From: Candidatus Zixiibacteriota bacterium | Lineage (GTDB): Bacteria; Zixibacteria; MSB-5A5; WJJR01 | Assembly: GCA_036397555.1 (NCBI GenBank) | Contig: DASWIS010000015.1 | Coordinates: forward strand, 1 to 64,000 | DNA length: 64,000 bases | Direction of reading: 5' to 3' | Part shown: piece by piece, positions 27,498-61,600 of the stretch | Numbering within the stretch: the stretch's first letter is position 1 | Layout: each line of letters begins with the position of its first letter | Notes under the pieces: model-generated | Told to the model about the DNA's origin: nothing | Seen by the model: the letters and a program-made list of their open reading frames with translations, nothing else | Databases searched by the model: none | Made by a program: the position numbers and the translations under genes

Positions 27498-27531
27498 AAA
27501 AAAAGGGAGGAAGGCGAAATGCCTTCCTCCC
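27498..27531 (-). terminator. Rho-independent terminator of the 1620-aa dockerin protein
   Basis: An 11-bp perfect stem (27505-27515 with 27521-27531) and a 5-base loop, followed on the minus strand by seven T. It lies 28 bases after the stop codon. Confidence 0.9.
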
Positions 27532-27558
27532 TTAAGGTGCGTTGGATACGTCACCCGA

Positions 27559-30500
27559 TTACAGTGGGAACCTCCAGGCGCCGACCGGCTGTGCCGCGAG
27601 ATTGCCGGACACATAGTCGACCAACTGGACCACATCGAGGTTGTCAACGTTGCCGTCGTTGTTGACGTCACCCGAGTACGTATCGGGATAGATGAAATTC
27701 CCCACGTCGATCCACAACGCGTCGCCAAGGTCCACGAAGCCGTCATCGTTGACGTCGCCGCGGGCAAAACCGCCCCAGCGCGCCGCGCGAGCCGCCAACG
27801 CGGTCGCATCGGCGTCGATCAGAGCCACATCGGGAGCGCCGTTGTATCCATCGACCGCAAATAGCGCCTGATGGACCGCATGCGAACCCAACGGATCCAG
27901 CGTGAACGGCTGATGGACAAGGACCGCGGCACGATCGATGAGGAAGCCGATGCCGCCGTCGATCAGACGCGTCGGTAGTTCGTTGACGATGTCGTTGTAG
28001 ATCAACGCGTCGTCTTCGATGAATCCACGGTTCCAGCCGCGTGTCGTCTGACGGTCCGAGTTGTTGTAGACCATGATGCGATACGGCGAATTGGCCGACG
28101 GATCGACACCGCTGTAAACCGACGGCTGATCGGGATCCAGCATGCCGAACGCGTTGCGCGGACTGGCTGCTGCGTCATCCCAAATCGCATACCCGTTGTA
28201 GTTATCCGACGGGCTGCCGGTATTGGTGGCGTAGCCGGACCCACCGCCAACGTCCCAGTCAAAATACGTACCGGCATAGATCGGTCCGTTCGGGGCGTTG
28301 TTACGGTTGATCAGCTCCCAACGAATCAGCTTGAAGTCTCCATACAGCGGGTCGAAGGCGCCGACCTCGGTCTGGAGAACGTTCACGCCGATTGCCGCGG
28401 CCGCACTGGCACTGACAACCTCAAAGTTGGTGTCAGAATAGTGCGACTGAATCCACTGGCCGTTGATCGCTTCGGGAACTCCCACGCCTGCCCCGGTGCG
28501 CTTGTAACCCAGGACGATATCGTCCATGCGTTCGAAGCCGCACAAACCATCAGACAGCTTGGGGTTCGGCACATAGTCGGCCGGGACGTGTCCGAACAGT
28601 TCGAAGCGCGCATTCGCTGCGTTGGGAATCGCTTCGCCCGTTCCGGAGTCGCCGACCAGAACCAATGTTCCGTCATAGATGTTGTCGTCACTGTTGTGTG
28701 GATCATCCGGCCAGTGCAACGCCGTATTGGATGCGCCCAGCGTGCCCCAGTTCCACATCGTCTCGGAGCGCTCGCTGCCGCCGCCCGGGGTGTCGTTGAA
28801 CACCAACGTCGCGGTGTCTCGCGAGCAGCCGCCAACGTAGGTGATCTCGAGGGTTGCCTGTTGCGGATCGCCTGCCTGGAATGCCAGCACGTCAAAGTCG
28901 GGATCGTCGTGATCGAAGATCAGATACTCGACTTCGGTGTTGCGCTCCAGCCCGGCGCCGTTGAAGTCCCAGGCCACTTCGCCCAGATCATCCGGAGCCA
29001 GTGTGACCGGCAGACCGGACGCGTTGATCGTGACGCTCGCCGCAATCGTCCGTCCGACCGCGGAACCGGCCGCACGGATGATCTGATTGCGCACGCTGTT
29101 GCCGTAACGAGCATCTTCCTGTTCCAACGGCAGCATGTAGCGATTGTAATACCGCTCGCTCCACTCGCCATTGAGAACCTTGCGGTCGGCTGCGCCGATG
29201 CCGCGGACCATATCATCTTTCGATATGTCTCCGTCGGCATAACGCGCAAAACGATCCGCGGCCTGAGCCACGCTCGGCAATTCGCGCTGGAAGCGGCGAA
29301 CCGTCGGCGAGGTCGAGGCCAATGCGCTCGGACCCGCATCCACGGCAACAACCGCCGTGAAGTTAAGGTCTTCGCAACCGTCGTTACGGAACACATCGGG
29401 CTCCGAATGCGATAGAGGACCGGAACCCAGGGGCACGATGACCTGCACTTCGTCGATCAGTTGCGTCAGACGCGGACGGGTACCGGCATTCAGCTTGTAA
29501 GCCGAAACGATGCCCTGATTCAACAGCGCACCGCCGCCGAGGCGGGAGGATACGACCGCGAATTGGTCGCCGCTGGAATGCTGAACGAGCGCCGTGCCGT
29601 TGACGACCTGCCCGACGAGCACCGGGTACTGCCTGTACCACTCGACATCGAGCGTGTTCGCATTCAGCACCCACCAACGCGCTGAACGCGTCCCGGCAAA
29701 CAGGTAGTTGTCGCAGGTGAGCGTGACATTGCTGGTCACGAAATCTACGCCGTTGAGACCGAAGTTGTGCACGCCCAGACCGATGACCTTGTCGACCATG
29801 ACGATGCCGCCGGCGTTCCCATCCTGGCCCATGTACAGGAAATTGCGGCCGATGGTCGGCGCGCCATAGAGACTGGCCTCTTGCGCCGCATCCCAGGCGA
29901 TGTCCGGGGCGCCGCTGGAGACATCGAGAGCATAACGACGCCCGGCAACGTCCCCATTGTGTGCCGCGGCATAGACAAAGTCACCCTCGGCCGAGACACC
30001 GCCGGGGAAGCCGAGCAGAGGATCGGCCGGCACAAACTGCCAGTTGGCCGAACCATCAGATGGGTCGATCGACCAAATCGAGCCCGAACCCAGATCCGAA
30101 TCGGCAGTACCGACCAACAACTCGGTACCGTTCCACGTCGGCCCGTGACGAGCCGCTTTGTCGAGCGTGATCGGGTTGGTCGTCCAGGGGCCGTACAAGC
30201 ACCCCGTCGCCGCCTCATACGCATGCACCTGGCCCAACTGGCCGGGGGAGGCGATCGGCTCGGTCAGGACAAAAAGCACGTCCGTGCCACCGACGTCGAC
30301 AACCACCGATGCATTAAAGCGGTTCTGGGCGCCCAGAATGCCCGGAGGCGCTCCGCACGCAGGACCGGTATGGCCCAACGACGTGTTCGACCAGATCGGC
30401 GAACTTAAGTCGTGCGGGTACTTGTTGATCGAACGGAACGTGCCGCCGGTGACATAGACCCCATCCGGACCGATCGTCGTGTTGCCACGATTCGATCCGC

Positions 30501-32421
30501 CCATGATCAGGTTGACGACCGAGGAGGTGATCGAATCGACGATCGCGCCGGTCAGCAGATTGCGCGCCATCAGTGACGACGACGCCGACTGGTACACGAT
30601 GTCGTTGGCCGCTGTCGGGTTGCAGAAGTCCGCCGTTTGCGGCACCAACTCCGACCATTCGAGATTCACCTGGCAAGGATCGCCGATGTTCATGTTGGAG
30701 GCCGAGGTACGGCGCTCATCGCGCCCGTACTCGTTCCACACATCTGCGCCGGGAACCGCGCAGACGTCCTCAACGACCGGCACGACTTCCTTGCAGATCA
30801 ACGCGTCCATGAACATCTCGGCGTGATGGAACCCGGCGCCGATGTCGGTGGCGTACTCGCCTACGTAGCGCCATGTCGGCAAGCCGGCGTTGGGTACGTA
30901 CGCGTCAAAGAACACAATCGAGCGCGGGTAGTCCGGCGGGACACAGCCCGGATTGGGCCACAAGAGGGGCTCGCCGCAGCTTCCACCGCCGTACACGCCC
31001 GCGAAGGACGTGCCAACTAGCGGCGATGCGGCGCTACGTTCGACTGTGACAAAGAAGTGCTCCGGAATTCCCCCGTTGAGTGTCCCAAATGTCAAATCCG
31101 GGATGGGAACAACCGTCTCCATAGGATAGAAACTCCCGGGGACGTCCACCGAGTAGAGCGGCGCCGCGCCCGGAGTCGGTTCTCCGCAAATACTGGAGGG
31201 CGGACCACTCGCATCCCAAACTGATACGGTCATGATAATTCCCGGCGCCGAGACAATCAGCAGGAACCGGACCTCTTTGAGAGTGTCCAGCCCGACTGCG
31301 GAGTAGCGGACTCCGAACTTCGTGCGCGGCCCCGTCGAAGGGGGGGCAGCCGGAAGTCCGAAGTGGATGTCCCAGTCGTCGTTGCCGTCAGCATAGCGCA
31401 CCGGCTGCCCGTAATTAAAGAAGGTTGTCCCATCCAGATGTGACGGGTAACACCCGGTCGCCAAGTACCAGAAATCGTACACGCAATCACCCGCGGTGCA
31501 GTGCGTGGCGACATCGTCGGGAGTGTAGCCCTCCGACCACAGCAGGTAATTCAGCATCACCGAGCTGTACCCAGTCGCCGGGTAGATCCCAAACGCACCG
31601 TCCAGGTCGGCTTCAAAGTAGTTGGCCATGTCGTCCCAGCCGAACCCGTAATCGTTGAGAACGGCGCAGTCCGGGCCGCCGCCAGCCGCATCAGGGGCAG
31701 TGTCCTGGCTTCCGTCGTCCACAAAGAGACGCAGGGCGCCGACCGCAATGAAGTTCGGGGCGTAGTAGCCCGCGAAATACGGACCGGTCACGCAGCATTC
31801 GATCGGGAACGCCAGGTTAAACAGAAAGCTGCCGCCCGGGCTGGGGAGATTGAAGGCATTCAGGTTTCCGACGCAGAGAATGCCGCCGGGCAAGTGGCCC
31901 GTACCCGAGGGGCTGCTGCCGCAAAGCACCTCAACGTCAGCGTCCCACACGACCGGTTGCAACACCAGCGGGTTGTTGGCGGGCCAGAAGGCGGCCGCCG
32001 GCCCCGTGTTGTTCAGGATCGTGTTGACCGCTGTAACGTCGAAGGTGTAGTTCGACGGGGCGCCGCAGACATCATGCCAGTCCGGGTCGTCGAAATCCTG
32101 GTAGGCCGCGTAAAACTCGCCGCCGGCCCACCAGCCGCCGAACACAAGATTAATTCCGAAGTCGGTCGACTGCTGCCAGAGACCGTCGCAGAAAGTCCCG
32201 GGGACTGTACGAGTCTGACCGCCCTGCATTAAGACGGTCGGATCGCCCCAGACCTCCGCTTGCGAGGCATTCGGCGACACACCCGACTTGTCGTGCTGAC
32301 CCGTCTGAATTCGCGGGTAAGCCTCGTTCGTCAAGGCGTCGTCGTACGCCAAGGCCGCAGTTGACCCCATCAAGAACAGCAGTCCCGAACAGAGAACTGC
32401 AATGAAGGGTTTTTTGTGCAT
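27559..32421 (-). CDS. large secreted PQQ-propeller protein with C-terminal dockerin repeats
   Basis: 1620 residues. AGGAGG at 32431-32436 fixes the ATG at 32421. The signal peptide KKPFIAVLCSGLLFLMGS... ends at ALA. The N-terminal part (to about 550) is rich in Gly, Pro and Cys without a recognised fold. From about 590 to 980 runs a PQQ-like beta-propeller (for example GSIWSIDPSDGSANWQFVP and NYLFAGTRSARWWVLNAN). A further domain with RNQIIRAAG and LIRWELINRNNAPNG reaches 1550. The last 66 residues hold two dockerin-type loops, GDVNDDGFVDLGD and GDVNNDGNVDNLD, with the canonical Asp positions 1, 3, 5 and 12. No sorting domain follows, unlike the other large secreted proteins here. It may be held at the surface through its dockerin. 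Confidence 0.85.
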   Translation of the reverse strand: MHKKPFIAVLCSGLLFLMGSTAALAYDDALTNEAYPRIQTGQHDKSGVSPNASQAEVWGDPTVLMQGGQTRTVPGTFCDGLWQQSTDFGINLVFGGWWAGGEFYAAYQDFDDPDWHDVCGAPSNYTFDVTAVNTILNNTGPAAAFWPANNPLVLQPVVWDADVEVLCGSSPSGTGHLPGGILCVGNLNAFNLPSPGGSFLFNLAFPIECCVTGPYFAGYYAPNFIAVGALRLFVDDGSQDTAPDAAGGGPDCAVLNDYGFGWDDMANYFEADLDGAFGIYPATGYSSVMLNYLLWSEGYTPDDVATHCTAGDCVYDFWYLATGCYPSHLDGTTFFNYGQPVRYADGNDDWDIHFGLPAAPPSTGPRTKFGVRYSAVGLDTLKEVRFLLIVSAPGIIMTVSVWDASGPPSSICGEPTPGAAPLYSVDVPGSFYPMETVVPIPDLTFGTLNGGIPEHFFVTVERSAASPLVGTSFAGVYGGGSCGEPLLWPNPGCVPPDYPRSIVFFDAYVPNAGLPTWRYVGEYATDIGAGFHHAEMFMDALICKEVVPVVEDVCAVPGADVWNEYGRDERRTSASNMNIGDPCQVNLEWSELVPQTADFCNPTAANDIVYQSASSSLMARNLLTGAIVDSITSSVVNLIMGGSNRGNTTIGPDGVYVTGGTFRSINKYPHDLSSPIWSNTSLGHTGPACGAPPGILGAQNRFNASVVVDVGGTDVLFVLTEPIASPGQLGQVHAYEAATGCLYGPWTTNPITLDKAARHGPTWNGTELLVGTADSDLGSGSIWSIDPSDGSANWQFVPADPLLGFPGGVSAEGDFVYAAAHNGDVAGRRYALDVSSGAPDIAWDAAQEASLYGAPTIGRNFLYMGQDGNAGGIVMVDKVIGLGVHNFGLNGVDFVTSNVTLTCDNYLFAGTRSARWWVLNANTLDVEWYRQYPVLVGQVVNGTALVQHSSGDQFAVVSSRLGGGALLNQGIVSAYKLNAGTRPRLTQLIDEVQVIVPLGSGPLSHSEPDVFRNDGCEDLNFTAVVAVDAGPSALASTSPTVRRFQRELPSVAQAADRFARYADGDISKDDMVRGIGAADRKVLNGEWSERYYNRYMLPLEQEDARYGNSVRNQIIRAAGSAVGRTIAASVTINASGLPVTLAPDDLGEVAWDFNGAGLERNTEVEYLIFDHDDPDFDVLAFQAGDPQQATLEITYVGGCSRDTATLVFNDTPGGGSERSETMWNWGTLGASNTALHWPDDPHNSDDNIYDGTLVLVGDSGTGEAIPNAANARFELFGHVPADYVPNPKLSDGLCGFERMDDIVLGYKRTGAGVGVPEAINGQWIQSHYSDTNFEVVSASAAAAIGVNVLQTEVGAFDPLYGDFKLIRWELINRNNAPNGPIYAGTYFDWDVGGGSGYATNTGSPSDNYNGYAIWDDAAASPRNAFGMLDPDQPSVYSGVDPSANSPYRIMVYNNSDRQTTRGWNRGFIEDDALIYNDIVNELPTRLIDGGIGFLIDRAAVLVHQPFTLDPLGSHAVHQALFAVDGYNGAPDVALIDADATALAARAARWGGFARGDVNDDGFVDLGDALWIDVGNFIYPDTYSGDVNNDGNVDNLDVVQLVDYVSGNLAAQPVGAWRFPL

Positions 32422-38731: not shown

Positions 38732-41700
38732 CTACTTCATCAACGTCATCTTGCGGCTGGCGACAAATTCGCCGGCATTGACGCGATAAAGGTACACACC
38801 TGACGCAACGGAATTGCCGTTTTCATCAAGTCCATCCCAGGAGACTTGCTGCGGACCGACGCCGTTGCCCGCAAATGTGCGGACGGTCTGGCCGGCGACG
38901 TTGTACACCCGCAAGGTCCAGTCACCCTCGTTGACCAGGTCGAACGGAATCACCGTGCCCGCGTTGAACGGGTTCGGGTAGTTCTGGTGCAACGAGTATT
39001 CGGTGGGACGATTGATGGCCGCCGCCGAGGTCGACAGCAGTTGGCCTTCCGCATCCGAGACCTGGTTGTCCACCAGCTCGATGCGTCCGGTGCCCTCGAG
39101 GGGCACGCTAAACAGCGCCTGTGTGCCGGAGGCAACGCTGGTCGGGTTGTTCGCGTCGGGAGAAACCAACACGCGCAACTCGCCATTGCGTGCCGATGAA
39201 CTGATGTTCATCCCCTGGGTCGCGGCGGTGAGCACGGGCTCGCCGATCGCGACTCCGGAATAGCGGAAGACGAACATCGCGCCGCCCAAGCCGTCCGGCG
39301 TGGTGGCGGATACGTTCATGGCACTGTTGTCCACAGAATAGGACACGCTGCCGGCACTGGCATACGGCGACATTCTCGGATTGCCGCCCGGCGGGAACGG
39401 CTGCGCATCACCGGTGATGATGCGAATCAGGTACACCAGGTCCGCGACCGTCAGGACGACACCGTCGTCGTTGACGTCGGAGGCCAATAGCTGCACCGCC
39501 CGCAGGTTGGCATCGGAGTGGAAGACGTCGATGCCATAGATGAAGTACCGTGAATACAGAACCGCATCACCGATCTCGTTGGCGATCGCATTCAGGTTCA
39601 GGTCGCCGCGGTCATCCGGCGGCTCCTGCACACAGACACGGCCGTTGCAGAGGTTGATGATGTCGCGCGGGAACGTCTTGCCCTGGTCGATGCACGAGAT
39701 GTCCGAACCGATCGGCAGGAACGTCGTGTCGCCCGATCTGCTGGAGAGCGCGTTGTCGCCGCAATCCAGGGTGCAGAAGCCCACCAGCAGGCAGGACCCG
39801 ATGAAGTTGCGATCGGAGGTGACCAGGAAGCTCAACGCGATGATCTCGCCGTCCAGAAGGAATTCGGCATCGTCGGGATGATTCGCCGGCCCGTTATCCA
39901 GATCGGCGATGGCGACCACGCGCAGGTAACCGGTCGGGCATCCGCCCGGGCAGTTCGACTGCGGGCTGTGACGCCACGTGAAGTACTCCCATGCGGCCAG
40001 GTTGCCGACCGCCTCGGCGCCTAAGAACGACAAACCGGTTTGATCGTAGCACAGCAGCAGGTCCAGACCGCCGAGCGCGTATCCGTCGGCAATCTTGACA
40101 TACACAGTGACGATCTCACCGTTGAAGGCGTCGATGATCGAGTCGGTCACTTCGCCGGAGTCGCCCGCGCAGAGCGTGAACGCCAGCACGTCGATGGTGA
40201 AGCAGCATTGATCGCTGCCGCCGCAACCGTCGGCGACATCAAGGCACACTTCCCACAAGCCCTCGTCGTTGTTGTCCGACGATTCGGTCTGCCACGAGAA
40301 TTCACCCGTGTTCGGATCGATGCTGGGGGCATTGTGCGGAACACGTCCCGGATCCTGGAGGTGCTCAATCGAGATCAGCGAGAACGTCAGGTCGTCGCCG
40401 TAAGCATCGCTGGCGTCCGCGTCCGTTTCGATCAGGTCGCCCAGGATCGCCAAGTCGATGTTGTCCGGACAATCGATGACCGGATCCGGATTGATGACTT
40501 CGATCGTAAAGTCGCAGTCATCAGTCTTGCCGGTCGCATCGGTGACTCGCACGGTGATCGTGTAGACCTGTCCCAAGTCCGCGCAGTCGGCGTCGAAGCT
40601 GTAAGTCGCGCCGTTGATGCTGCCCGCATTGGTCGGGGCCGGCACTTCACTGACGATCGACCAGGAGACCGGACCGCAATCGACGAACGATGTGGTCAAC
40701 GCCTTGTCGAACGAGTCGTCCCAGTTGACCTGATGTGCGCCGGAGACATTGCACACCGGCGGATTCGAGGTGATCGTCACGTCGAACGAGCAGTCGATCG
40801 AATCGCAGTCGTCGGACCCACGGAAATTGATCGTGTGCAAGCCGACGTCGCTGCAATCGGTGCCGTCCAGATTGAACAACCCGTCGGACGATACCGACAC
40901 GCTCGCGCCGCCGTTAAACGGCGGAACCACGCTCACCAGCGAGTAGGTGATCGCATCGCCGTCCGCATCATCGACATCCAACTGCTTGTCCACGATGCTG
41001 GCGGAATGATGGATCGACTCGTTGTTGTTCGTGCCGCAGGTCGGCTGGGTGTTGGTGACCTCAACGTCGAAGCTGCACTGTGCGGTCGCGCCGCACTGGT
41101 CTTCGACTTCCGCGGTGAGCGTGTGGGGGCCCTTGTCCGCGCAGACCGCGTCATACTCGAACAACCCGTCCGAGGACAACGTGGCGCCCGTCAGCCCGCC
41201 GTCATCAACCAACGTCCAGCTCAGCGACGCGATGTCGCACGCGTCCGGATCGGACGCGTCCAGCTGCTGGCTGAGCGAACCGTTCCACGGCGTGCTCTGG
41301 TCCGGGCACGAGGTCGTGTACGGATCCTCGTTGACCAGATCCCACTCGCCCTTGGACCAGCCCAAGGCAAGCGGCAGGGCGAAGCAATCGAGGGTGACCC
41401 ATGCTCCGGCCGGTGGATAAAATGCTGTGTCTAGCTCGAGATGCCCTATGCAGTCGTCCGGTGTGGTAATCGTAACGGTCCAGAAGTCCGGGTAGTTGCC
41501 GTCCGGAACGCAACCAACGAAGTTGGCGACGCCCTGGTTGCCGGAAACCCCGGTCCCGATCGTCAATCCACCCGGCTGATCTACGCCGGGTACGATTGCA
41601 TCAATCGTACCGCCACCGGTGAGAATCAGGGGCAATCCCCATGCACCCATGTCTGTTCCCGCCAGACTCAAGAAAATCGGGATATCGACCTGGGCACAGC

Positions 41701-41824
41701 GGGGCAATGTCTGCGATTGCAGACCGCCCTGATCCACTCCGCCTGCTGATTGGGCAAAGGCGAGACTGGTTGAAAGAAGCAAGGCCATGCTCACGCAGGC
41801 CAAGACTATAAGTTTATGCTTCAT
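38732..41824 (-). CDS. giant mosaic surface protein 1: Ig-like repeats, cohesin-like, dockerin-like, sorting domain
   Basis: 1030 residues from ATG at 41824, where GGAG precedes it and KHKLIVLACVSMALLLSTS... ends in FAQ; the in-frame ATG at 41920 has no ribosome site. About residues 190-540 hold Cys-rich Ig-like repeats (for example DGDAITYSLVSVVPPFNGG). The cassette shared with the genes at 51296 and 58646 follows: cohesin-like (about 545-735, AFNGEIVTVYVKIADGYALG, LLLCYDQTGLSFLG), dockerin-like pair (about 738-813, RGDLNLNAIANEIGDAVLY and SDVNDDGVVLTVADLVYLI), a beta domain, then a sorting domain (about 943-1030) with QNYPNPFNAGTVI and end KMTLMK. Probably a surface structural or adhesion protein. 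Confidence 0.8.
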   Translation of the reverse strand: MKHKLIVLACVSMALLLSTSLAFAQSAGGVDQGGLQSQTLPRCAQVDIPIFLSLAGTDMGAWGLPLILTGGGTIDAIVPGVDQPGGLTIGTGVSGNQGVANFVGCVPDGNYPDFWTVTITTPDDCIGHLELDTAFYPPAGAWVTLDCFALPLALGWSKGEWDLVNEDPYTTSCPDQSTPWNGSLSQQLDASDPDACDIASLSWTLVDDGGLTGATLSSDGLFEYDAVCADKGPHTLTAEVEDQCGATAQCSFDVEVTNTQPTCGTNNNESIHHSASIVDKQLDVDDADGDAITYSLVSVVPPFNGGASVSVSSDGLFNLDGTDCSDVGLHTINFRGSDDCDSIDCSFDVTITSNPPVCNVSGAHQVNWDDSFDKALTTSFVDCGPVSWSIVSEVPAPTNAGSINGATYSFDADCADLGQVYTITVRVTDATGKTDDCDFTIEVINPDPVIDCPDNIDLAILGDLIETDADASDAYGDDLTFSLISIEHLQDPGRVPHNAPSIDPNTGEFSWQTESSDNNDEGLWEVCLDVADGCGGSDQCCFTIDVLAFTLCAGDSGEVTDSIIDAFNGEIVTVYVKIADGYALGGLDLLLCYDQTGLSFLGAEAVGNLAAWEYFTWRHSPQSNCPGGCPTGYLRVVAIADLDNGPANHPDDAEFLLDGEIIALSFLVTSDRNFIGSCLLVGFCTLDCGDNALSSRSGDTTFLPIGSDISCIDQGKTFPRDIINLCNGRVCVQEPPDDRGDLNLNAIANEIGDAVLYSRYFIYGIDVFHSDANLRAVQLLASDVNDDGVVLTVADLVYLIRIITGDAQPFPPGGNPRMSPYASAGSVSYSVDNSAMNVSATTPDGLGGAMFVFRYSGVAIGEPVLTAATQGMNISSSARNGELRVLVSPDANNPTSVASGTQALFSVPLEGTGRIELVDNQVSDAEGQLLSTSAAAINRPTEYSLHQNYPNPFNAGTVIPFDLVNEGDWTLRVYNVAGQTVRTFAGNGVGPQQVSWDGLDENGNSVASGVYLYRVNAGEFVASRKMTLMK

Positions 41825-42173
41825 TCTCCATTGCTCCTTTACCTTCGTTTCCAAGAAATCAGCGTCAGATAATCCTGACACCGTCGCGCTCTCGCTGCAG
41901 TTTTCCATGATGCAGTGCATCAGGCGTAACCGCCTAAAGCGCTTTAGAATAGGAACACGAAAGGAAATCTATTGGTGACAGGAAACCCTATGGAACGCAG
42001 GGCACCCTCGCGGTCTTGATCTTTCGCGATTCAAAACCAAAGAGTGGTTGATCAATGAGGCTATGTCACTTACAAGCAGCGTGAACTGCTCAGCACGATG
42101 ATGAAGGTAAAGAAAAATGTGAGATTGTCAACTGAATTCACGCAAGTTTCTCAGGGCGGCCTACCGATCCGGC
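41825..42173. other. intergenic region upstream of giant protein 1
   Basis: No gene seen. The minus strand should hold the promoter of the giant gene. The palindrome at 41934-41947 and an adjacent hairpin AGGCG/CGCCT (41922-41935) lie about 100 bases before its start. The rest up to the end of the cysteine-synthase-like gene shows nothing I recognise. Confidence 0.55.
41934..41947. promoter_or_regulatory. 14-bp perfect palindrome, possible operator
   Basis: CTAAAGCGCTTTAG lies about 110 bases before the start of giant protein 1 and touches a 5-bp hairpin. Placement suits a regulator site or a leader stem. Confidence 0.4.
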
Positions 42174-51295: not shown

Positions 51296-54200
51296 CTACT
51301 TCAGCAGCGTCATCTTGCGCGTGGCGGTGAAGCTGCCGGCGCTGACACGGTAGAAGTAGATGCCCGATGCCAGCGGGTCGTGGCGGTTATCCGTTCCATC
51401 CCAGTTGACCTGGATGTTTCTGGCGTCATCGGAACCGCTGAACGTCCGCACCGCCTGCCCGGCGACGTTGTAGATCCTCAGGTTCCACGCACTGGGCTCG
51501 GCCAGGTCGAATGTGATGACCGTGCCGGCGTTGAACGGATTTGGATAATTCTGATTGAGCGCGAAGTGTTCCGGACGCTGCACCGCCGCAGTCGAGACGG
51601 ACATCAGACCGCCCTGGGCATCGGAGAGCTGCGACCCGACCAGTTCGACGGTTCCCTGTCCATCGACGGGTATACGGAACAGTTCGCGCGGACCCGACGC
51701 CATCGAGCCGGGCGATTCCGGATCGGGTGCGATGAGAACGCGCATCTCCCCGTTGTTGGCGCTCGCCCGCACGGACATTCCCGGATAATGGCCCGTCAAT
51801 TCCGGCTCGCCCAGCGTGACGCCCGAGTAGCGGAACACGAACGCCGCCGCGCCCAGGTCGACCGGTGTTGCCGTGGAGACACTCAGCACGCCGTCGCTGA
51901 CAGCATAGCGGACCGTGGCGTCATTCACATACGGTGACATCTTCGGGTGTCCGCCCGGCGGGAACGGCTGCTCATCGCCGGTGATGATGCGGATCAGGTA
52001 GACTAAGTCCGCAACCGTCAGGACGATACCGTCGTCGTTGATGTCCGATGCCAGCGTTTGCACCGCACGCAACTCCGGATCGGAATGGAACACGCTGACC
52101 CCATAGATGAAGTAGCGCGAATACAAAACGGCATCGCCGACTTCGTTGGCAATCGCATTCAGGTTCAGATCGCCACGGTCATCGATCGGCTCTCTGACGC
52201 AGACAAAGCCGTCGGAGACGCACAATCCGGGGATCGGATCGCCCTTCGGATTGCTCTGGCACGTGTCGAACAAGATTGACGTTTCAAGGAAGGTCGTGTC
52301 GCCCGAGCGGCTCGCCACTGTGTTGTCGCCGCAATCGATCCAGCAGAACCGAATCGGCAGGCACTGATTGATGAAATTGCGGTCTTCGGTAACCTGGAAC
52401 ACGAGTTCTGCAATCGTGCCCATCGGCTGGAAGGCCGGTTCGGAGGGATGCTGCGGGCCGTTGTCCAGATCGGCGATCGCAATGATGCGAATCAGGCCGG
52501 TGGGACAACCCAAACCGCAATTGGAACGGCTCCCGAGCCGATAGGTGAAGTACTCCCATTCGTCCAGTTCCGACCCAGCGCTGACAGCGATCGCCGCCAA
52601 GCCCGTCTGGTCGTAGCAGAACAGCAGGTCGAAGCCGCCGATCGGCACGTCCAGTTCGTGAATGATGATCGGTACGGTCACCTGCGTGCCGTTGAGGGCC
52701 TGAATCACCCCGCCGGATTTGCCCTGTCCCGCTTCGGGGCCGACGCTGATGCGTATGTTGCACTCAGTCTCGCCGCACGAGTAGTAGATCGTGCGCTCAC
52801 ACTCCGATGTGTTGCCGCACTCATCGGTGGCCGTGTAGGTGTCGACGATGAGGATCGGGTCGCCGAGTTGCCCGCTGCCGCTGCTGTCGGTGCGCAAGCA
52901 GACGACGTCGACCGGGCCCCCGCAATTGTCGGACACGTCGGCATCGGACTCATCGCATACGGGAATCGTGTCGCCGCAGCCCAGGAACAGATTGGCCGGG
53001 CAGACGATGACCGGCGGAACATTATCGTCGATGGTGAATATCTGCTGGCAATAGTCAACGTTTCCGCAGTCATCGGTCGCGCTGTACGTGCGCGTGACCG
53101 AGCCGCCGCACGGTCCGCCGGGCAACGGCGAGTCGCCGACCCACGTGATCGTCACCGTGTCGTCGCAGTTGTCGCTCGCGATCACCAATCCCGTGTTCGC
53201 GGCGGGAATGTCGTCGACGCACCCGACGGTCGCATTGGCCGGGCACTGCGTAATCACCGGCGCTGTGGTGTCATCGACGGTGAACACTTGCAGGCACGTA
53301 TCCGCGTTGCCGCAGAGATCGGCGGCGATGTAGCGCCGTGTGACCGTGCCGCCGCAGGGACCGCCTGTCAACGGGCCGTCGCCGTCATGCGTAATGGTCA
53401 CGCTGTCGCAGTTGTCGGTGGCGCTGACCAGACTGGTATTGGCCACGGGTATCGCGTCGGCGCATTCGACCGTGGCCGGATCCGGGCAATCGGTAATCAC
53501 CGGCGGGGTGTCGTCCAGCACCGTAATGGTCTGCCACTGGTTGGCCAGGTTTCCGCACGAGTCGACGATGCGGTAGTAACGCGAGATCGTCGCGCCGCAC
53601 GCCGAGCTGTCTGTGTAGGTGTCGCTGTCGTGGAAGGCATACGACGGCCCGCAGTTGTCCGTCGAGGTGATCAGCGAGGGATTCGGCAAGGGCACGTCGT
53701 CGAAGCACTGCACCGTCGTGTCGTTCGGGAACGATGTCACGACCGGCGGGATATTGTCGCGGACGATGATGTATTGCTCGCACTGCGCGGCGTTGCCGCA
53801 CTCGTCGGTCGCTTCATAAGTCCGCAGGACCGTAAATCTGTGCTGACAGCCGTAGTTGATGATCTGATCGCTGACAAAGTCGATGTCGACCGGGCCGCCG
53901 CAGTTGTCGGTTGCAGCCACCAATCCCGGATCCGGGATCGGGATGTCGCCCGCGCAATCCACCGTATCGTCATCCGGACAGTCGGAAATGACCGGCGGCG
54001 TGTCGTCGATCACGGTGAAAACCACCAGGCAGGTGTCCTCGTTGCCGCAATCGTCGCCTGCAATGTAGCGGTCGGTGATGACCAGCGGGCTGGCCGCGCA
54101 TCCGGCGCCGCCATTGTCGGAACGCTCGCAGCGTTTCTCGACGTCGTTATCGCAATTGTCGGTCGCCGATGCCGCCGACGTGTCACAGTCAGGTACATCG

Positions 54201-57200
54201 TCGGCGCACTGGAAGTTGAGAGTCGGATACACAGGGCAGGTAATGTCCGGCGGCGTATCGTCGATGACCGTGAAAACCACCAGGCAGGTGTCTTCGTTGC
54301 CGCAATCGTCGGTCGCGATGTAGCGGTCGGTGATGACCAGCGGGCTGGCCGCGCATCCGGCGCCGCCATTGTCGGAGCGCTCGCAGCGTTTCTCGACGTC
54401 GTTATCGCAATTGTCGGTCGCCGATGCCGCCGACGTGTCACAGTCAGGTACATCGTCGGCGCACTGGAAGTTGAGGGTCGGATACACAGGGCAGGTAATG
54501 TCCGGCGGCGTGTCGTCGATGACCGTGAAGACGACCTCACAGGTATCCTCATTGCTGCAATCGTCGGTTGCAATGTAACGGTCGGTGATGAGCAGCGGGC
54601 TGGCCGCACATCCGTCACCGCCGTTATCGGAACGCTCGCAGCGGATCGCGACAGCAGTATCGCAGTTGTCGGTCGCCGATGCCGAGGCGGTATCGCAGTC
54701 GGGGACTTCTGAGGCGCACTGGAACAGGACCGTCGGATAGGCCGGACAAGTGACCACCGGCGGCGTCGTGTCGTTGACGGTGATGACCTGTTGACAGTCG
54801 GTCGAGTTGCCGCAATCATCCGTTGCGCGGTAGGTGCGCGTGATCGTGCCGCCGCACGGGCCGCCCGTCAACGGCGAATCCCCGACATGACTGATTGTCA
54901 CGGTGCCGCAATTGTCGGTCGCACTCACCAGTCCGATGTCTGGAGCCGGGATATTGCTCTCGCATTCGACCGTCAAACCGGCAGGGCACTGAACCGGTGT
55001 CGGCGGCGTGGTATCATCAACCGTAATAATCTGTACGCAGTCGGCGGTGTTGCCGCAATCATCCTCGGCCCGATATGTGCGAGTAATTGTCCCGCCGCAC
55101 GCTCCGCCCGTCAACGGCGAGTCCCCGATGTGGCTGATCGTCACATTGCCGCAGTTGTCGGTCGCGGAGACCAGGCCGGTGTCGGCCGCCGGCACATCGG
55201 CGTCACATTGGACCGTGATCGCCGGCGGGCACAGCGTGATGACCGGATCGGTGTCGTCAATGACCGTAATCGTCCGCGAACAGGTATCCGCATCACCGCA
55301 TGAATCGGACGCTATATATGTATAGGTCAGGATCAACGGATCCCCGGGGCAACCCAGGCCGCCATTGTCGGTGCTGCTGCACGTGACGACGACCGGCGGT
55401 GTACCGCCCGTGACTGTCGCATCGTTGGGATCGCACGCCGGGATATCGGCGATACACTGGACTGTTTCATTGCCGGGGCAAGTAATCGACGGTGGCATGC
55501 CGATCATGAATGTGACTTCAAATGATGCCGTGCACGTGTCGCAGACGCCCGCGCACTCAATCGTAACGTTGACTGTTTCATCACCAGCCGGTGTATAGCA
55601 CCAGTTCGTGCCGACCAGCGTGCCGGGCCCGCCGCCGACGATGGTGCAAGTCGCGCCGGTCGCAAACGCCGGGAGGCACACTTGCGTCGGAGCGCATTGG
55701 AAAATCGTTGTGTCGTTCGGCACCTCGCAGATCGGCGGCGCCGGATTCGGGAACTGAATATCGACGAACAGCGTGCAGCACTCGCCGCACGGGTCGCAGC
55801 AGGTGATGGTGTCGACGACGTGCTCACCCGGAGTGGGGGAATACTGCCACGTTCCGGCGCCCAGCGTGGCGTTGGGATTTGTGTTGCCGCACGTCAGCGT
55901 ATCGCCGTCCGGATCCGTCGAACTGAACAGAATCGTGTGCACCGGCGGCGTGCACTGCGGCGGTGGCGGAGGTCCGCCGCCCTCAAGCTCGCAGGTAGGC
56001 CCCTCGTTGATTTCAAAGGTAATCGAGAAATTTCCGAAGCACGAATCACCGCAGGCGTCGACGCACTTGATCGTCACATCGACTGTCTCATCACCGGTCG
56101 GAGTGTAGCACCAGTTGCCGCCCGCCAGTGCGCCGGGTCCGCTGACGATGCTGCAGCCGACAAGGTTGCCATCAGCATCGGTCGCCGAGACCGGCAGGCA
56201 GACTTCGGTCGGATCACACTGCTCGAATGTCTGGTTCGACGGCAGATTGCAGGCCGGCGGCTCATTGAACTCAAACGTGACCTTGAATGAATCGACGCAG
56301 GTCGCGCTGCAGGAATCGACACATTCGACGATGACCGTGACCGTGCCCTCAGAAACAGGCGTGTAGCACCAATTAGCGCCCGACAGCGCGCCGGGGCCGC
56401 TGAGGATGGCGCAACTGTCGAGATTGCCGTCGACATCGGTCGCCCCCACGGGAAGACAGACTTGCGCCGGGTCGCACTGAAAGATCGTCGTATCGCCGGG
56501 CAGGACACACACAGGCGCCGTATTCGTGTCGCATGGGTCGGTGCAATCGCCGCTTATGACATTCGACACGCCGACCATCATATCATCATGATCGCCGTTC
56601 CCGCCGGTGTGATCGTCGTCGATGAAGATCAGATAGTCGAAATCACCGGAGAACGCGTTGGCGTCCCCGTCACCGTCATACCACACATAGTTCTGGAATC
56701 CGGACCCGCTGACATCATAGACGATGAACCACTGGTAACTCTGATTGGCCGGGGGCTCGGAGAGGGCCATCTCTCGGAACAGCCAGGCGTCATTGGGCGG
56801 ATCGTACACGCCGTTGGTGACACCGACGCCGAGGTTGATATCGTTGAGCAGGTTCAGCCCGAAGACCCCGCTGATTGGGACCGATGCGGTCGCGCCGGTG
56901 GCGGCCGTCGGGCTGAAGATCACGTTCATCCCCTGAACGCCCGAAGCAGCCCACGACAGCCAGTTGTTGTCGTCCCACGGGGTGTTCTCACCGAGAATTT
57001 TGAAATCGATGTCCGGCCCCGTCGGCGTGAAGCAGGGATCGGAGACCGAGTCTCCGATCAGGCAATCCTCGTCGGTCGTGAGCACCAGCTCAAACGACGA
57101 CGGCGTGTTGCCGTTGCAGAGATCACACGCGCTGGAATCGACCACGATCGGTTCGCAATCGTTGGATGACGAGAGCTCCACGCAACGCTTTGAGGACGAC

Positions 57201-57913
57201 GAATGCGTGGGATTGCAGGCGCTGTTGCCCGGATTGGGGCAGGGGTTCGGTTTGTCCTCACCACGGAACTTGGCGCGGATCGTGTAATTCCCCGGCGTCG
57301 TCGGAAACGTGAGGACGGCGCACGCATCGCCGCTGGAGTTGGTCAGGGCGCTGTCGTTGGCGGTTTGCCCGACGTTGGCGCCGCAATTGCCGGGATTGAT
57401 GAAGAACAAGATCTCGCGTCCCGCCAATGGCGCCGTCGAGGAGCCGCCGCAGTTCTGTACCAGCTCGGCGCAGACGGTCAGCGTGTCACCGGGACAAATC
57501 GAATCGGGGATCGCCGACGTTATCGTCAGGATCGTATTGTGATCCCAGAAGGTTGTTTCGGCATGCAGTCCCGAGGTGAGGCCGTCGGCTGTCAGCAGCA
57601 ACTCTTCGCCGACATTGTCGTCATAATCGACGATCCAATACGCCTCAAAGCCGCCCCCGGCATCCGCCGTCACGTTCCAAGGGTCGTGGCCGGCGCCGCC
57701 CAGCGGGTCGCCGTCGAGGTGCACGACCTGCAGCGTGACTGTCTCGCCTGCCCAAAACCCCGTGCCCGTGATGATGACCGAATCACCGGGCGCGTAATCG
57801 TTCTGGTCGGTCGCGACACTTGCGCCCCAGGCGGAAGTGGCTGTCAGCGTGAGAACCGCACACATCGCGATGACCAATCCGGTTGTCTTCAGCAGGCGTG
57901 TGGCAGAACTCAT
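51296..57913 (-). CDS. giant mosaic surface protein 2: eleven HYR-like and four Ig-like repeats, cohesin-like, dockerin-like, sorting domain
   Basis: 2205 residues; the minus-strand start at 57913 has AGGGGA upstream and a signal peptide ending TSA. An N-terminal region of Ig/beta domains includes an acidic stretch FIDDDHTGGNGDHDDMMVGV. Four Cys-rich repeats follow (for example CVLPGDTTIFQCDPAQVCLP), then eleven HYR-like repeats of about 80-85 residues in the pattern VxCxxDxPxxDxxxxxATDNC ... YxATDxCGNxxxC (about 870-1715). The shared C-terminal cassette runs from about 1715: cohesin-like (ALNGTQVTVPIIIHELDVPI, LLFCYDQTGLAAIA), dockerin-like pair (RGDLNLNAIANEVGDAV, SDINDDGIVLTVADLVY) and sorting domain (QNYPNPFNAGTVITFDLAEP, end KMTLLK). 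Repeats 5 and 6 of the HYR set are almost identical. Confidence 0.82.
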   Translation of the reverse strand: MSSATRLLKTTGLVIAMCAVLTLTATSAWGASVATDQNDYAPGDSVIITGTGFWAGETVTLQVVHLDGDPLGGAGHDPWNVTADAGGGFEAYWIVDYDDNVGEELLLTADGLTSGLHAETTFWDHNTILTITSAIPDSICPGDTLTVCAELVQNCGGSSTAPLAGREILFFINPGNCGANVGQTANDSALTNSSGDACAVLTFPTTPGNYTIRAKFRGEDKPNPCPNPGNSACNPTHSSSSKRCVELSSSNDCEPIVVDSSACDLCNGNTPSSFELVLTTDEDCLIGDSVSDPCFTPTGPDIDFKILGENTPWDDNNWLSWAASGVQGMNVIFSPTAATGATASVPISGVFGLNLLNDINLGVGVTNGVYDPPNDAWLFREMALSEPPANQSYQWFIVYDVSGSGFQNYVWYDGDGDANAFSGDFDYLIFIDDDHTGGNGDHDDMMVGVSNVISGDCTDPCDTNTAPVCVLPGDTTIFQCDPAQVCLPVGATDVDGNLDSCAILSGPGALSGANWCYTPVSEGTVTVIVECVDSCSATCVDSFKVTFEFNEPPACNLPSNQTFEQCDPTEVCLPVSATDADGNLVGCSIVSGPGALAGGNWCYTPTGDETVDVTIKCVDACGDSCFGNFSITFEINEGPTCELEGGGPPPPPQCTPPVHTILFSSTDPDGDTLTCGNTNPNATLGAGTWQYSPTPGEHVVDTITCCDPCGECCTLFVDIQFPNPAPPICEVPNDTTIFQCAPTQVCLPAFATGATCTIVGGGPGTLVGTNWCYTPAGDETVNVTIECAGVCDTCTASFEVTFMIGMPPSITCPGNETVQCIADIPACDPNDATVTGGTPPVVVTCSSTDNGGLGCPGDPLILTYTYIASDSCGDADTCSRTITVIDDTDPVITLCPPAITVQCDADVPAADTGLVSATDNCGNVTISHIGDSPLTGGACGGTITRTYRAEDDCGNTADCVQIITVDDTTPPTPVQCPAGLTVECESNIPAPDIGLVSATDNCGTVTISHVGDSPLTGGPCGGTITRTYRATDDCGNSTDCQQVITVNDTTPPVVTCPAYPTVLFQCASEVPDCDTASASATDNCDTAVAIRCERSDNGGDGCAASPLLITDRYIATDDCSNEDTCEVVFTVIDDTPPDITCPVYPTLNFQCADDVPDCDTSAASATDNCDNDVEKRCERSDNGGAGCAASPLVITDRYIATDDCGNEDTCLVVFTVIDDTPPDITCPVYPTLNFQCADDVPDCDTSAASATDNCDNDVEKRCERSDNGGAGCAASPLVITDRYIAGDDCGNEDTCLVVFTVIDDTPPVISDCPDDDTVDCAGDIPIPDPGLVAATDNCGGPVDIDFVSDQIINYGCQHRFTVLRTYEATDECGNAAQCEQYIIVRDNIPPVVTSFPNDTTVQCFDDVPLPNPSLITSTDNCGPSYAFHDSDTYTDSSACGATISRYYRIVDSCGNLANQWQTITVLDDTPPVITDCPDPATVECADAIPVANTSLVSATDNCDSVTITHDGDGPLTGGPCGGTVTRRYIAADLCGNADTCLQVFTVDDTTAPVITQCPANATVGCVDDIPAANTGLVIASDNCDDTVTITWVGDSPLPGGPCGGSVTRTYSATDDCGNVDYCQQIFTIDDNVPPVIVCPANLFLGCGDTIPVCDESDADVSDNCGGPVDVVCLRTDSSGSGQLGDPILIVDTYTATDECGNTSECERTIYYSCGETECNIRISVGPEAGQGKSGGVIQALNGTQVTVPIIIHELDVPIGGFDLLFCYDQTGLAAIAVSAGSELDEWEYFTYRLGSRSNCGLGCPTGLIRIIAIADLDNGPQHPSEPAFQPMGTIAELVFQVTEDRNFINQCLPIRFCWIDCGDNTVASRSGDTTFLETSILFDTCQSNPKGDPIPGLCVSDGFVCVREPIDDRGDLNLNAIANEVGDAVLYSRYFIYGVSVFHSDPELRAVQTLASDINDDGIVLTVADLVYLIRIITGDEQPFPPGGHPKMSPYVNDATVRYAVSDGVLSVSTATPVDLGAAAFVFRYSGVTLGEPELTGHYPGMSVRASANNGEMRVLIAPDPESPGSMASGPRELFRIPVDGQGTVELVGSQLSDAQGGLMSVSTAAVQRPEHFALNQNYPNPFNAGTVITFDLAEPSAWNLRIYNVAGQAVRTFSGSDDARNIQVNWDGTDNRHDPLASGIYFYRVSAGSFTATRKMTLLK
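54003..54512 (-). repeat. near-identical 255-bp tandem duplication within giant protein 2
   Basis: 54003-54257 and 54258-54512 are direct repeats, each an 85-codon HYR unit. They differ at only a few bases, whereas the neighbouring units differ widely. One visible coding change is ATDDC to AGDDC. Confidence 0.9.
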
Positions 57914-58645: not shown

Positions 58646-61600
58646 TTACTTCAGCAGCAGCATCTTGCGGCTGGCGACAAAACCGGATGCTTCGAGTCGG
58701 GCAAAATAAATCCCCGTCCCGACCGGATGCCCATCGGCCCGATCGCCGAGCCAGTTGACCGAAACCCATCCCAACCCGGCCGCACCCTCAAATCGCCGGA
58801 CCGGCTGGCCTAATACATTATATATGGTCAGACGCCAATCTGATGTCTGCGGCAAATGGAAACGGATCGTCGTTCCGGCATTGAACGGATTGGGGTAGTT
58901 CTGCTGTAATTGATAGCTCCCCGGCCGTGACCCAGCGCCGGCGACCGTCACCTCGGCGGTGACGATGGCTCCATCGGGGTCTCCCGCCTGCGCTTCGAAC
59001 GCTTCGAGGTCGGCGTTCGCAGGCAGCGCCACGCCAAACAGCAGGTGCCGTCCGGCCGGCATCGAACCGCCCGAAGTGTCGCGCACGATCAGAGCCCGCA
59101 GGACACTGCCATCAACATTGGCCGACCGGGACAAGCCGGAAGGCAACTCGGCCCACTCGATGCCGCCGAAGCTTGCCTCCGCCGACAGAGAAACGAACAC
59201 GCCGCCTAAGTCGACGGTGTTCTGTACATAGACATCGAGCCGATCGTGCCCGCGCTCGACGATGATCTCCGCGTGACCGTCGGAGTTGACAACCTTCGGC
59301 TGCACATCAGGGCAATTGACCGGGCTGGCGTCGCCGGCGATGATCCGGATCAGCAGGATCAAATCGGCCAGCGTCAGCACGATGCCGTCGCAGTTGACGT
59401 CGGATGCCAGGATCTGGTTCTGCATGTACAGCGGATTCCAGACACCGTTGCCGTAGATGAACCAGTTCGAGAACAGGACCGCGTCGCCGATGTCATAGAC
59501 GATCCCGTTGAGATTGAGATCGCCGCGGTCGTCCTCGGGCGGGATGATGCAGATCGCGCCGTCGCAGAAGAGGATTTTGCGGATTGCCGTGAACTTGTCG
59601 CCGTCGAAACACGAATCGGCGACGCCCGTAAACGACAGATACGTCGTGTCGCCGTCGCGGTTGGAGATGGCGTTGTCCGAACAGACCATCCAGCAAAACC
59701 GGATCGGCACGCACTGCCCGATGAAGTTGCGATCGGGCGTCGTGTAAAACGAGATGAGCGCCAATGGTCCTTTGGGTTTGTAGGCGTCCTCCGACGGGTG
59801 CGCCGCGCCGTTGTTCATGTCCGCGATGCCGAGGATGCGGATCGACCCGCTCGGGCAGATAAAGCAGCCGGTCTGCGCGCCGGTACGGAAGGTGAAATAC
59901 TCCCACTCGGCGATCGCGCTGTCCGCCGTGATCCCGGCAAACCCGAGCGCCGTCTGATCGTAGCACAGCAGGAAGTCGAAGCCGCCCATCTCGAGTGTCT
60001 CGATGACGCGCAGTTTGACGGAGACCAGTTCGGCGTTGAGCGCCTGGATCGTATCGATGCAAACGATGAAGGCCGTATCGATCGACACGCAGATGAGCGC
60101 GGTGTCGCGATCATGCAGCCCGCAGGAATCGGCGACGTCGAAGATGAAACGATAACATCCGGTCGTGTCGGCGGTGAAACAGTGCTGCGCGCCCGCCGCA
60201 TTCCGTCCCAGGATGGCCGAAAACGCGCCCGCGCCTTCCACTTTGGTGACCTCGAAAAGCTGGTCGGTGTCGGGATCGGTCGCGTCGACCGAAAAGCAAA
60301 TTTGTGTCGGCGCTTCAAAGACCAGATCGTCGGGAACGCCCGTGATGCCCACGCTGGGCGCCTGATTCAATTGCACCACGACGTAGGTCGTGTCCACGTC
60401 GCTGGCGTTGCAGGAGTCCAGCGCCGTCATCTCAAAGCAGTAGACTCCCATCGTATCGGCATCGAAACACAAGATTCCCGTCCCCTGATCGATGCTACCG
60501 ATGCCCTGCGTGATGTCGACGGATTTGAGATTGCCGTTCTCGTCGGTCGCCGCGATGCCGCCGATACAGATCGAGTCGGCTTCGCAGAGCAGGGCGGCCA
60601 CCGTGTCGGGCACCGACAACTGCGGCGGCGCATTGATCGTTACGTCCACACAAATGGTGTCGGCGTCGGTCAGCCCACAGGAATCGGTGACCTTGACGCC
60701 GATGCAGAATTGGTCGGACCCGATCGGCGTGAAGCAGACACTATTGGCGACCGTATCGAGCACCGCGCCCGCCGGAGCAAATTGCAGCATCTCCGTCAGC
60801 TTGGCGGGACCGTCGGGATCGGAGACCGTGTAATTGACGCAAATCTGTGTCGGCGAACACTGGAAACGCGTGATGTCCGCTCCGAAAGCCAGCGTGGGCG
60901 GGCGGTTTAGTTGCACCGTGATGTAAATGGTGTCAGCGGCCGCACCGCCGCATGAGTCGCTGACCGTCATCAGAATCTTGTAGACACCCGCGGTATCGGG
61001 GGTAAAGCACACCTTGTTCAGTGCGGTATCGAGCTGCGCGCCGGGCGGCAGAATGGGTGCCTGCTCTGTGAGCTTCGCCGGACCGTCGGGATCGCTGACC
61101 GTGTAGTCGATACAGATCGGCGTCGGCGCGCATTGGAACGTCGTGAAGTCGGCGCCGAGATCGATTTCCGGGTTGCTGTTGAAAGTGACTGTCACCGCGA
61201 CCGTGTCGGTATCCATCGCGCCGCACGAGTCGGTGACTTTCGCGATGATGATCGAGGTTCCGGCCGCGCCCGGCGTGAAACAGATGCGATTGTTCAGCGA
61301 GTCGACCTCGCCCGGTCCGGAGACGAGCACCACGCTCAGCCCCGAACCGCTATCCGGATCGCTAATGCCGTAAGGGATGCAGATGAGTTGCGGCCCGCAG
61401 ACGAAAATATCCTGATCCGCTCCCAGATCGATTGTCGGCGGCCCGTTCAGGTTGACCGTCACGCAGACAGTGTCCTCGCCGGTGTCGCCGCAGGAATCGG
61501 TGGCGGCCACCGCAATACAGTATTCGCCCGCCGTCGGTGGCGTAAAGCACACACGGTCAAGCGCCGTGTCGATGGTTGCGCCCTGCGGCGCCAACGTGAG

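Follow-up and report, generated by a model that had tools for sequence, protein, structure and literature searches.

The locus described here raises the question of how an exported protein which has a dockerin at its C terminus, and no sorting tail, might be held at the cell envelope. The protein, P0001 (1620 aa), is encoded near three proteins with cohesin-like domains and type IX secretion system (T9SS) tails in a window, by which we mean the whole 64,000-nucleotide stretch of Candidatus Zixiibacteriota DNA that was analysed. The P0001 dockerin would plug, in a Ca2+-dependent manner, into a cohesin of the cell envelope and tether the propeller domain of the protein there, the candidate sockets being the T9SS-displayed cohesin-dockerin-cohesin proteins, three of which lie in the window, or a cohesin lipoprotein encoded elsewhere in the genome. 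We consider P0001 as a putative plug of this kind to have about an even chance of being right, and the same balanced judgement holds for the simpler proposal that its dockerin binds a cohesin at all. That the partner would be one of the cohesin proteins of the window is doubtful. The features of P0001 are as follows:

27559..32421, minus strand: P0001, 1620 aa, exported protein with a PQQ propeller and a dockerin at its C terminus (open reading frame, Pfam and structure matches)
29488..30684, minus strand: BamB/YxaL-like PQQ propeller domain, residues about 580-978 (AlphaFold2 model and PQQ_2 in relatives)
27595..27762, minus strand: dockerin, residues 1554-1609, two 12-residue loops (PF00404 and conservation)
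27562..27594, minus strand: C-terminal tail with P-x-G-x-W-R-F, residues 1610-1620 (invariant residues; putative clasp by analogy)

The P0001 reading frame opens with an ATG codon and encodes a Sec-type N-terminal signal peptide (by eye, with no lipobox seen by eye), a 535-residue N-terminal part, the PQQ propeller, a beta-rich C-terminal part and the dockerin, followed by the stop after residue 1620. In the Pfam scan the N-terminal part gave a DUF7451 match of 26.8 bits, under the cut-off of 27, and P0001 itself gave no PQQ_2 match at E<=0.01. An AlphaFold2 model of residues 536-1620 (m9e45a18fd294, mean pLDDT 61.2) placed the propeller at residues about 45-443 of the segment, mostly above pLDDT 65 with dips near 40. 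Structure alignment of this model with YxaL (Z 36.1-37.0, 342 residues aligned; 7eq5_B, Z 37.0, rmsd 2.5) and with E. coli BamB (Z 30.6-32.9, 325-331 residues aligned; 9a3d, Z 32.9) indicated that a PQQ-type beta-propeller fold is present. The propeller that an earlier note on this DNA had claimed for the 1620-aa protein is thus backed by Z values of up to 37.0 and by PQQ_2 matches in seven of nine members of the P0001 family (best E 7.5e-17). Compared with BamB and YxaL, with which it has the fold in common (Z 30.6-37.0), P0001 adds about 535 N-terminal and 600 C-terminal residues and a dockerin, and by eye the lipobox is absent.

Neither the T9SS domain TIGR04183 nor any other sorting domain was found in P0001 at E<=1, and the chain stops 16 residues past the last helix of the AlphaFold2 model, just past the dockerin, which bears out the earlier claim that a sorting domain is absent. 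P0001 gave no match at E<=1 to a Pfam family of glycosidases or other polysaccharide-degrading enzymes, and at E<=0.01 the aligned part of eight P0001 relatives gave none either. In a cellulosome, in contrast, the dockerin is carried by a polysaccharide-degrading enzyme.

The two dockerin loops of P0001 are DVNDDGFVDLGD and DVNNDGNVDNLD, and both have the ligand pattern Asp1, Asn3, Asp5 and Asp12. Two loops with Asp at positions 1, 5 and 12 had been reported before and were found again, but the Asp reported at position 3 is Asn in both loops. The domain lies close to the PF00404 cut-off of 22.9 bits, scoring 23.2 bits (E 1.8e-4) in the genome search and 20.8 and 22.1 bits in protein scans, and PF00404 was found in 8 of 9 members of the P0001 family, with a best E of 1e-8. 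The two Ca2+-binding loop-helix repeats which define a type I dockerin are present, and the domain was modelled with two helices at a pLDDT of about 55-81 (ten-residue means). Solved dockerins in the PDB matched it by sequence at E 0.38 or worse, and no dockerin match to the P0001 model appeared among the top 1000 Foldseek chains that were re-aligned, where the propeller filled the match list. The two-loop Ca2+ ligand pattern is shared with the clostridial type I system (CelS dockerin; CipA and OlpA cohesins) at the level of weak sequence matches; the cohesin fold is shared too. Compared with that system the first helix of the P0001 dockerin is shortened in family f1 (by eye; the helix of the model has 8 residues), and the 13-loop modules described below have an extra residue in each Ca2+ loop and are found on T9SS-tailed carriers.

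When 65-residue segments were ranked by conservation among eight orthologues of the same order, the best five of 1529 started at residues 1541-1545, covering the dockerin and its flank, and the segment 1554-1618 ranked 12th of 1529. Few parts of P0001 are as constrained as the dockerin. The constrained positions are the Ca2+ ligands, which are mostly invariant or nearly so in the eight orthologues with some changed, the glycines, W1549 ahead of loop 1, and P1612, G1614, R1617 and F1618 in the tail; W1549 and these four tail residues are invariant in all eight. Identity in four orthologues was 0.17 for helix 1 and 0.48 for helix 3, against 0.51 for the dockerin and 0.31 for the whole protein. 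In type I complexes it is the dockerin helices which contact the cohesin, and docking of P0001 to a cohesin is therefore weakened by the finding that this domain varies most in its helices.

The invariant tail is probably an intramolecular clasp with W1549, by analogy with DocScaA of Ruminococcus flavefaciens, in which a Trp-Pro clasp joins the two dockerin ends according to passages of PMC5934362. We set aside the idea that P-x-G-x-W-R-F is a new sorting signal, the clasp being the simpler explanation. The same passages describe the R. flavefaciens ScaA and CttA dockerins as having atypical loops, with insertions of 12-13 residues in the second loop (PMC5934362); the Trp-Pro clasp of ScaA resembles W1549/P1612 of P0001, which in contrast has no such insertion, and the 13-loop modules of this genome differ in having one extra residue in both loops.

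Three proteins nearby carry these modules:

38732..41920, minus strand: P0002, 1062 aa, with Ig-like repeats, cohesin 1, 13-loop dockerin, cohesin 2 and T9SS tail (Pfam, TIGR04183 and model)
51296..57913, minus strand: P0003, 2205 aa, with HYR repeats, cohesin-like 1, 13-loop dockerin, a region homologous to cohesin 2 of P0002 and T9SS tail (alignment)
58646..63697, minus strand: P0004, 1683 aa, with Big/PKD repeats, cohesin-like 1, 13-loop dockerin, a region homologous to cohesin 2 of P0002 and T9SS tail (alignment)

The TIGR04183 tails of P0002, P0003 and P0004 scored 35.7, 45.2 and 35.5 bits (cut-off 23). The Pfam cohesin family PF00963 did not match any of the three at E<=1, and their assignment as cohesin proteins follows from close relatives in the same genome (L009, L011 and L012), which pass the PF00963 cut-off and carry the same module, together with the fold modelled for P0002. 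The model covers the last 480 residues of P0002, the one protein of the three that was modelled (mean pLDDT 62.7), and contains two cohesin folds, at 12-187 (Z 13.7 to 5nrk_A, 131 residues aligned, rmsd 2.4) and at 274-386 (Z 12.6 to 1ohz_A, 113 residues aligned, rmsd 2.5), and a PorU-type C-terminal domain (CTD) at 391-480 (Z 10.7). With two cohesin folds in its model, P0002 has the more than one cohesin by which a scaffoldin is defined, and P0003 and P0004 align with it over the cohesin-dockerin-cohesin stretch at 58% and 42% identity, respectively. The three proteins had been described as giants with cohesin-like and sorting domains; the tails and the cohesin folds of P0002 agree with this description, and the size of P0002, at 1062 aa, does not.

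Each of the three proteins also has a dockerin-like module of its own ahead of the tail region. In P0002 this module lies between the two cohesin folds and was modelled below pLDDT 50. Both of its Ca2+ loops have 13 residues, not 12, in six of six aligned copies, and the cohesin-dockerin module profile matched the solved dockerin 3ul4_B at E 0.016 and cohesins weakly, at E 0.1-0.69. In the same four genomes as were used for P0001, the helices of the P0002-type dockerin had conservation values of 0.76/0.83, where the module as a whole had 0.51. Because the neighbours' own dockerins are better conserved in this respect than that of P0001 (0.17/0.48), docking of P0001 to the cohesins of the window is weakened. 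The complementarity which had been suggested, of a dockerin protein without a tail and tailed cohesin proteins beside it, is incomplete since the neighbours have dockerins too.

The rest of the genome (2.63 Mb, 35 contigs) contains several sockets and several plugs. There are seven PF00404 matches, and among the six proteins whose ends could be seen (L007 aside) a T9SS tail is present in L001 and L004 and in none of P0001, L002, L003 and L006; an 1838-aa protein on contig C8 also ends in a dockerin-like repeat pair, with the tail absent. PF00963 gave six matches at E<=1, five of them over the cut-off and none on the contig of the window, and one protein on contig C25 has two cohesin matches and a tail. 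The cohesin-dockerin module profile matched seven times, three of these within the window, and SprA_N of the T9SS translocon was found at E 2.1e-41. Another PF00963 match, on contig C8 (8614-10011, L103), falls in a protein of 465 aa whose N-terminus is lipobox-like by eye; it is a probable lipoprotein and a possible periplasmic or outer-membrane cohesin receptor. A rule by which dockerin proteins lack the tail and cohesin proteins have it was rejected, as at least two of the seven PF00404 proteins have T9SS tails and the genome has other cohesins, one of them with a lipobox by eye. Contigs C2 (at L011) and C5 (at L012) end inside nearly identical cohesin-dockerin modules and C6 starts in one, so that the assembly seems to break at a repeated cohesin-dockerin gene family. 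Two T9SS tails with identical scores, at C12:14896-15132 and C9:3757-3993, lie in open frames of 100 aa and are possibly another repeat.

Among 12 named P0001-like loci, nine were from Candidatus Zixiibacteriota and one from a 'bacterium', and those from Clostridia and Bacteroidaceae matched in the dockerin alone. Across 132 genomes of the class the P0001 family profile matched 89 at E<=1e-15, usually once or twice per genome. A core match was defined by a profile start <=700 and end >=1025 (propeller or beta part plus C-terminus), which dropped 16 of the 89 and left 73. The cohesin-dockerin module was found in 117 genomes at E<=1e-15: 73 genomes had both core and module, 44 the module alone, none the core alone and 15 neither (Fisher test 1.9e-6, with kinship ignored and optimistic since whole families lack the P0001 core). 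Three of these 15 (G031, G041, G054) have the module at a looser cut, and moving them gave 3.2e-5, again with kinship ignored. The earlier note would have been contradicted by a dockerin protein as common in genomes without the cassette; this was not the case, the core being found in none of the 15 module-less genomes, and two of these had any family match, either to the C-terminal part alone (G045) or to a propeller piece (G031). All nine genomes of the order to which the window belongs have both P0001 and the module. Loss of T9SS as the cause of the joint absence was rejected, as 13 of the 15 module-less genomes have SprA, which was found in 117 of the 132 overall.

One clean contrast was seen, in genus g52, where G072 has P0001 and the module and G071, G073 and G074 have neither. 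A second copy of an M50 peptidase gene lies beside the P0001 homologue of G072, the other three genomes having one M50 gene each, and this M50 copy and P0001 may have been gained or lost together. Among 58 relatives, PF00404 dockerins were found in 53 and PF00963 cohesins in 49; dockerin counts, among the matches listed, correlated with those of cohesins (Spearman 0.39, kinship ignored) and of modules (Spearman 0.29). In two genomes of family f16, with 30 dockerins in G045 and 18 in G053, neither a cohesin nor the module was recognised, by which the docking explanation is weakened. Either the cohesins of f16 have diverged or its dockerins have another use.

The position of the genes says little about pairing. 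In G002, G003, G006 and G007 a single contig carries P0001, the P0002-type protein and the larger module proteins in an unchanged order (the G004 contig ends early, the pieces fetched for G005 and G008 are on separate contigs, and G001 was outside the comparison), but the intervening genes are kept as well, among them RtcB, archease, PurD, PurE, GreA and a cation efflux protein, and RsgA flanks the stretch at its far end. Because gene order is stable here down to the housekeeping genes, proximity is not informative, and a dedicated P0001-cohesin cassette was rejected as evidence for pairing, given the housekeeping genes between and the synteny of the stretch in the order. Two further features lie immediately downstream of P0001:

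26402..27499, minus strand: M50 (site-2-type) intramembrane peptidase, downstream neighbour of P0001 (PF02163, E 1.3e-21)
27503..27533, minus strand: hairpin resembling an intrinsic terminator, with a 13-pair stem and a T tail, between the P0001 and M50 genes (pattern search)

The true start of the M50 gene is likely an ATG near 27445, as judged from the alignment. The M50 gene, which was the sole P0001 neighbour tested outside the order, is directly downstream of the P0001 family on the same strand in 55 of the 73 core genomes, over nine families, at a distance of 95-1606 bases between profile edges; by eye the other neighbours of P0001 differ between genomes. It is present in 68 of the 73 core genomes, and the 18 of 73 without adjacency include five in which no M50 was found and some at contig ends. 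Class-wide, 117 of 132 genomes have M50, mostly one match each, with two in G072 and G077. Pattern searching of the region gave 10 terminator-like patterns against 6.4 expected in shuffles, the hairpin between P0001 and M50 having the longest stem. As this hairpin separates the two genes, a simple operon is weakened and co-transcription is not required. In G009, G015, G036 and G045, which lack core P0001, M50 is preceded by a same-strand protein of 359-508 aa with TolB-like repeats by eye; these are four of the 16 readable M50 stretches from genomes without adjacent P0001. On the other side of P0001, and divergent from it, lies a gene for a 553-aa protein (34257-35918, plus strand) with no Pfam family at E<=0.001 and a T9SS tail match of 22.2 bits, under the cut-off.

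These results can also be explained in other ways. The T9SS-tailed cohesins may bind the 13-loop dockerins of the same proteins, in cis or between copies, to form a surface layer or fibre, in which case P0001 would not be their ligand and its dockerin would have another partner; we regard this as possible if somewhat unlikely. It would account for cohesin and 13-loop dockerin standing side by side in six aligned copies (which were chosen as whole modules), for dockerin helices that are better conserved than their module where those of P0001 stood at 0.17/0.48 against 0.31 for the protein, and for a module that is found in 117 of 132 genomes when the P0001 core is found in 73. Dockerins, however, often do not bind the cohesins of their own protein, which we counted against self-assembly, and the dockerin stretch of the P0002 model, being below pLDDT 50, gives no readable cis contact. 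Self-assembly of this kind and docking of P0001 are compatible and not exclusive.

If P0001 does not reach the surface, it might remain in the periplasm or at the periplasmic face of the outer membrane, bound by a cohesin lipoprotein, and work with the adjacent M50 inner-membrane peptidase. The signal peptide seen by eye without a known outer-membrane export signal, the 465-aa cohesin protein with its lipobox by eye, the M50 gene that immediately follows P0001 in 55 of the 73 core genomes, over nine families, while other neighbours vary by eye, and the TolB-like repeat protein (by eye) that precedes M50 on the same strand in 4 of 16 genes without adjacent P0001 all point this way. We nevertheless judge it unlikely: a strong terminator-like hairpin separates the two genes, M50 is not dedicated to P0001, being present in 117 of 132 genomes, and 18 of the 73 core genomes do not have the adjacency. 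It is quite unlikely that the dockerin has no cohesin partner and serves P0001 as a C-terminal cap stabilised by Ca2+. Such a cap would fit the conservation, in which the top residues are the Ca2+ ligands, the glycines, W1549, P1612, G1614, R1617 and F1618 and not the helices, and it would fit the two genomes with many dockerins and no recognised cohesin, but not the correlation of dockerin with cohesin counts (Spearman 0.39 in 58 genomes, among the matches listed and with kinship ignored) or the lack of any core family match in the 15 module-less genomes.

For docking at the surface, P0001 would have to cross the outer membrane. Passages of PMC9251779 and PMC5445135 state that T9SS substrates need a folded C-terminal domain. 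Because P0001 is without a CTD, no known outer-membrane route applies to it, and it would either use another route, stay in the periplasm with the cohesin lipoprotein, or travel with a carrier. The last would mean that tail-less dockerin proteins pair with a cohesin carrier while still in the periplasm and pass folded, together with it, through the wide SprA translocon, which we think highly improbable. Were it true, the cohesin-dockerin pair would be a non-covalent ticket to T9SS as well as a surface tether, and a small number of tailed carriers could transport and retain dozens of proteins without a tail. The passages on piggyback transport in PMC9251779 concern peroxisomes and glyoxysomes.

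The holding of dockerin proteins at the surface by tailed cohesins is already published as an inference for Cloacimonadota. Passages of PMC8542988 infer for Candidatus Stygibacter a cellulosome-like complex in which dockerin enzymes accompany a cohesin scaffoldin that bears a T9SS CTD, and also mention a 'planctosome' of Planctomycetes. A T9SS-CTD cohesin surface protein and signal-peptide proteins with C-terminal dockerins are found there, as they are here. In those passages one scaffoldin of 3755 aa, with tandem cohesins and CBMs, holds the dockerin enzymes (PMC8542988), whereas in the present genome a dockerin is also part of the cohesin proteins, and no catalytic domain was recognised in P0001. 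In the literature found under 'Zixibacteria' there was none with dockerin or type IX secretion, the spelling Zixiibacteriota and most subscription papers being outside the scope of that search. As far as these searches go, two things are new: the cohesin-dockerin-cohesin-T9SS layout, in which the loops have 13 residues, and the P0001 family, which is found across the class and has M50 as a neighbour. If the pairing is true, it would represent a class-wide tether system of uncultured bacteria for exported proteins without a sorting tail, and it raises the testable question of the route by which a tail-less dockerin protein reaches a T9SS-displayed cohesin. The layout itself is a variant of the cohesin-dockerin theme, the cohesin-dockerin profile of which matches 117 of the 132 genomes.
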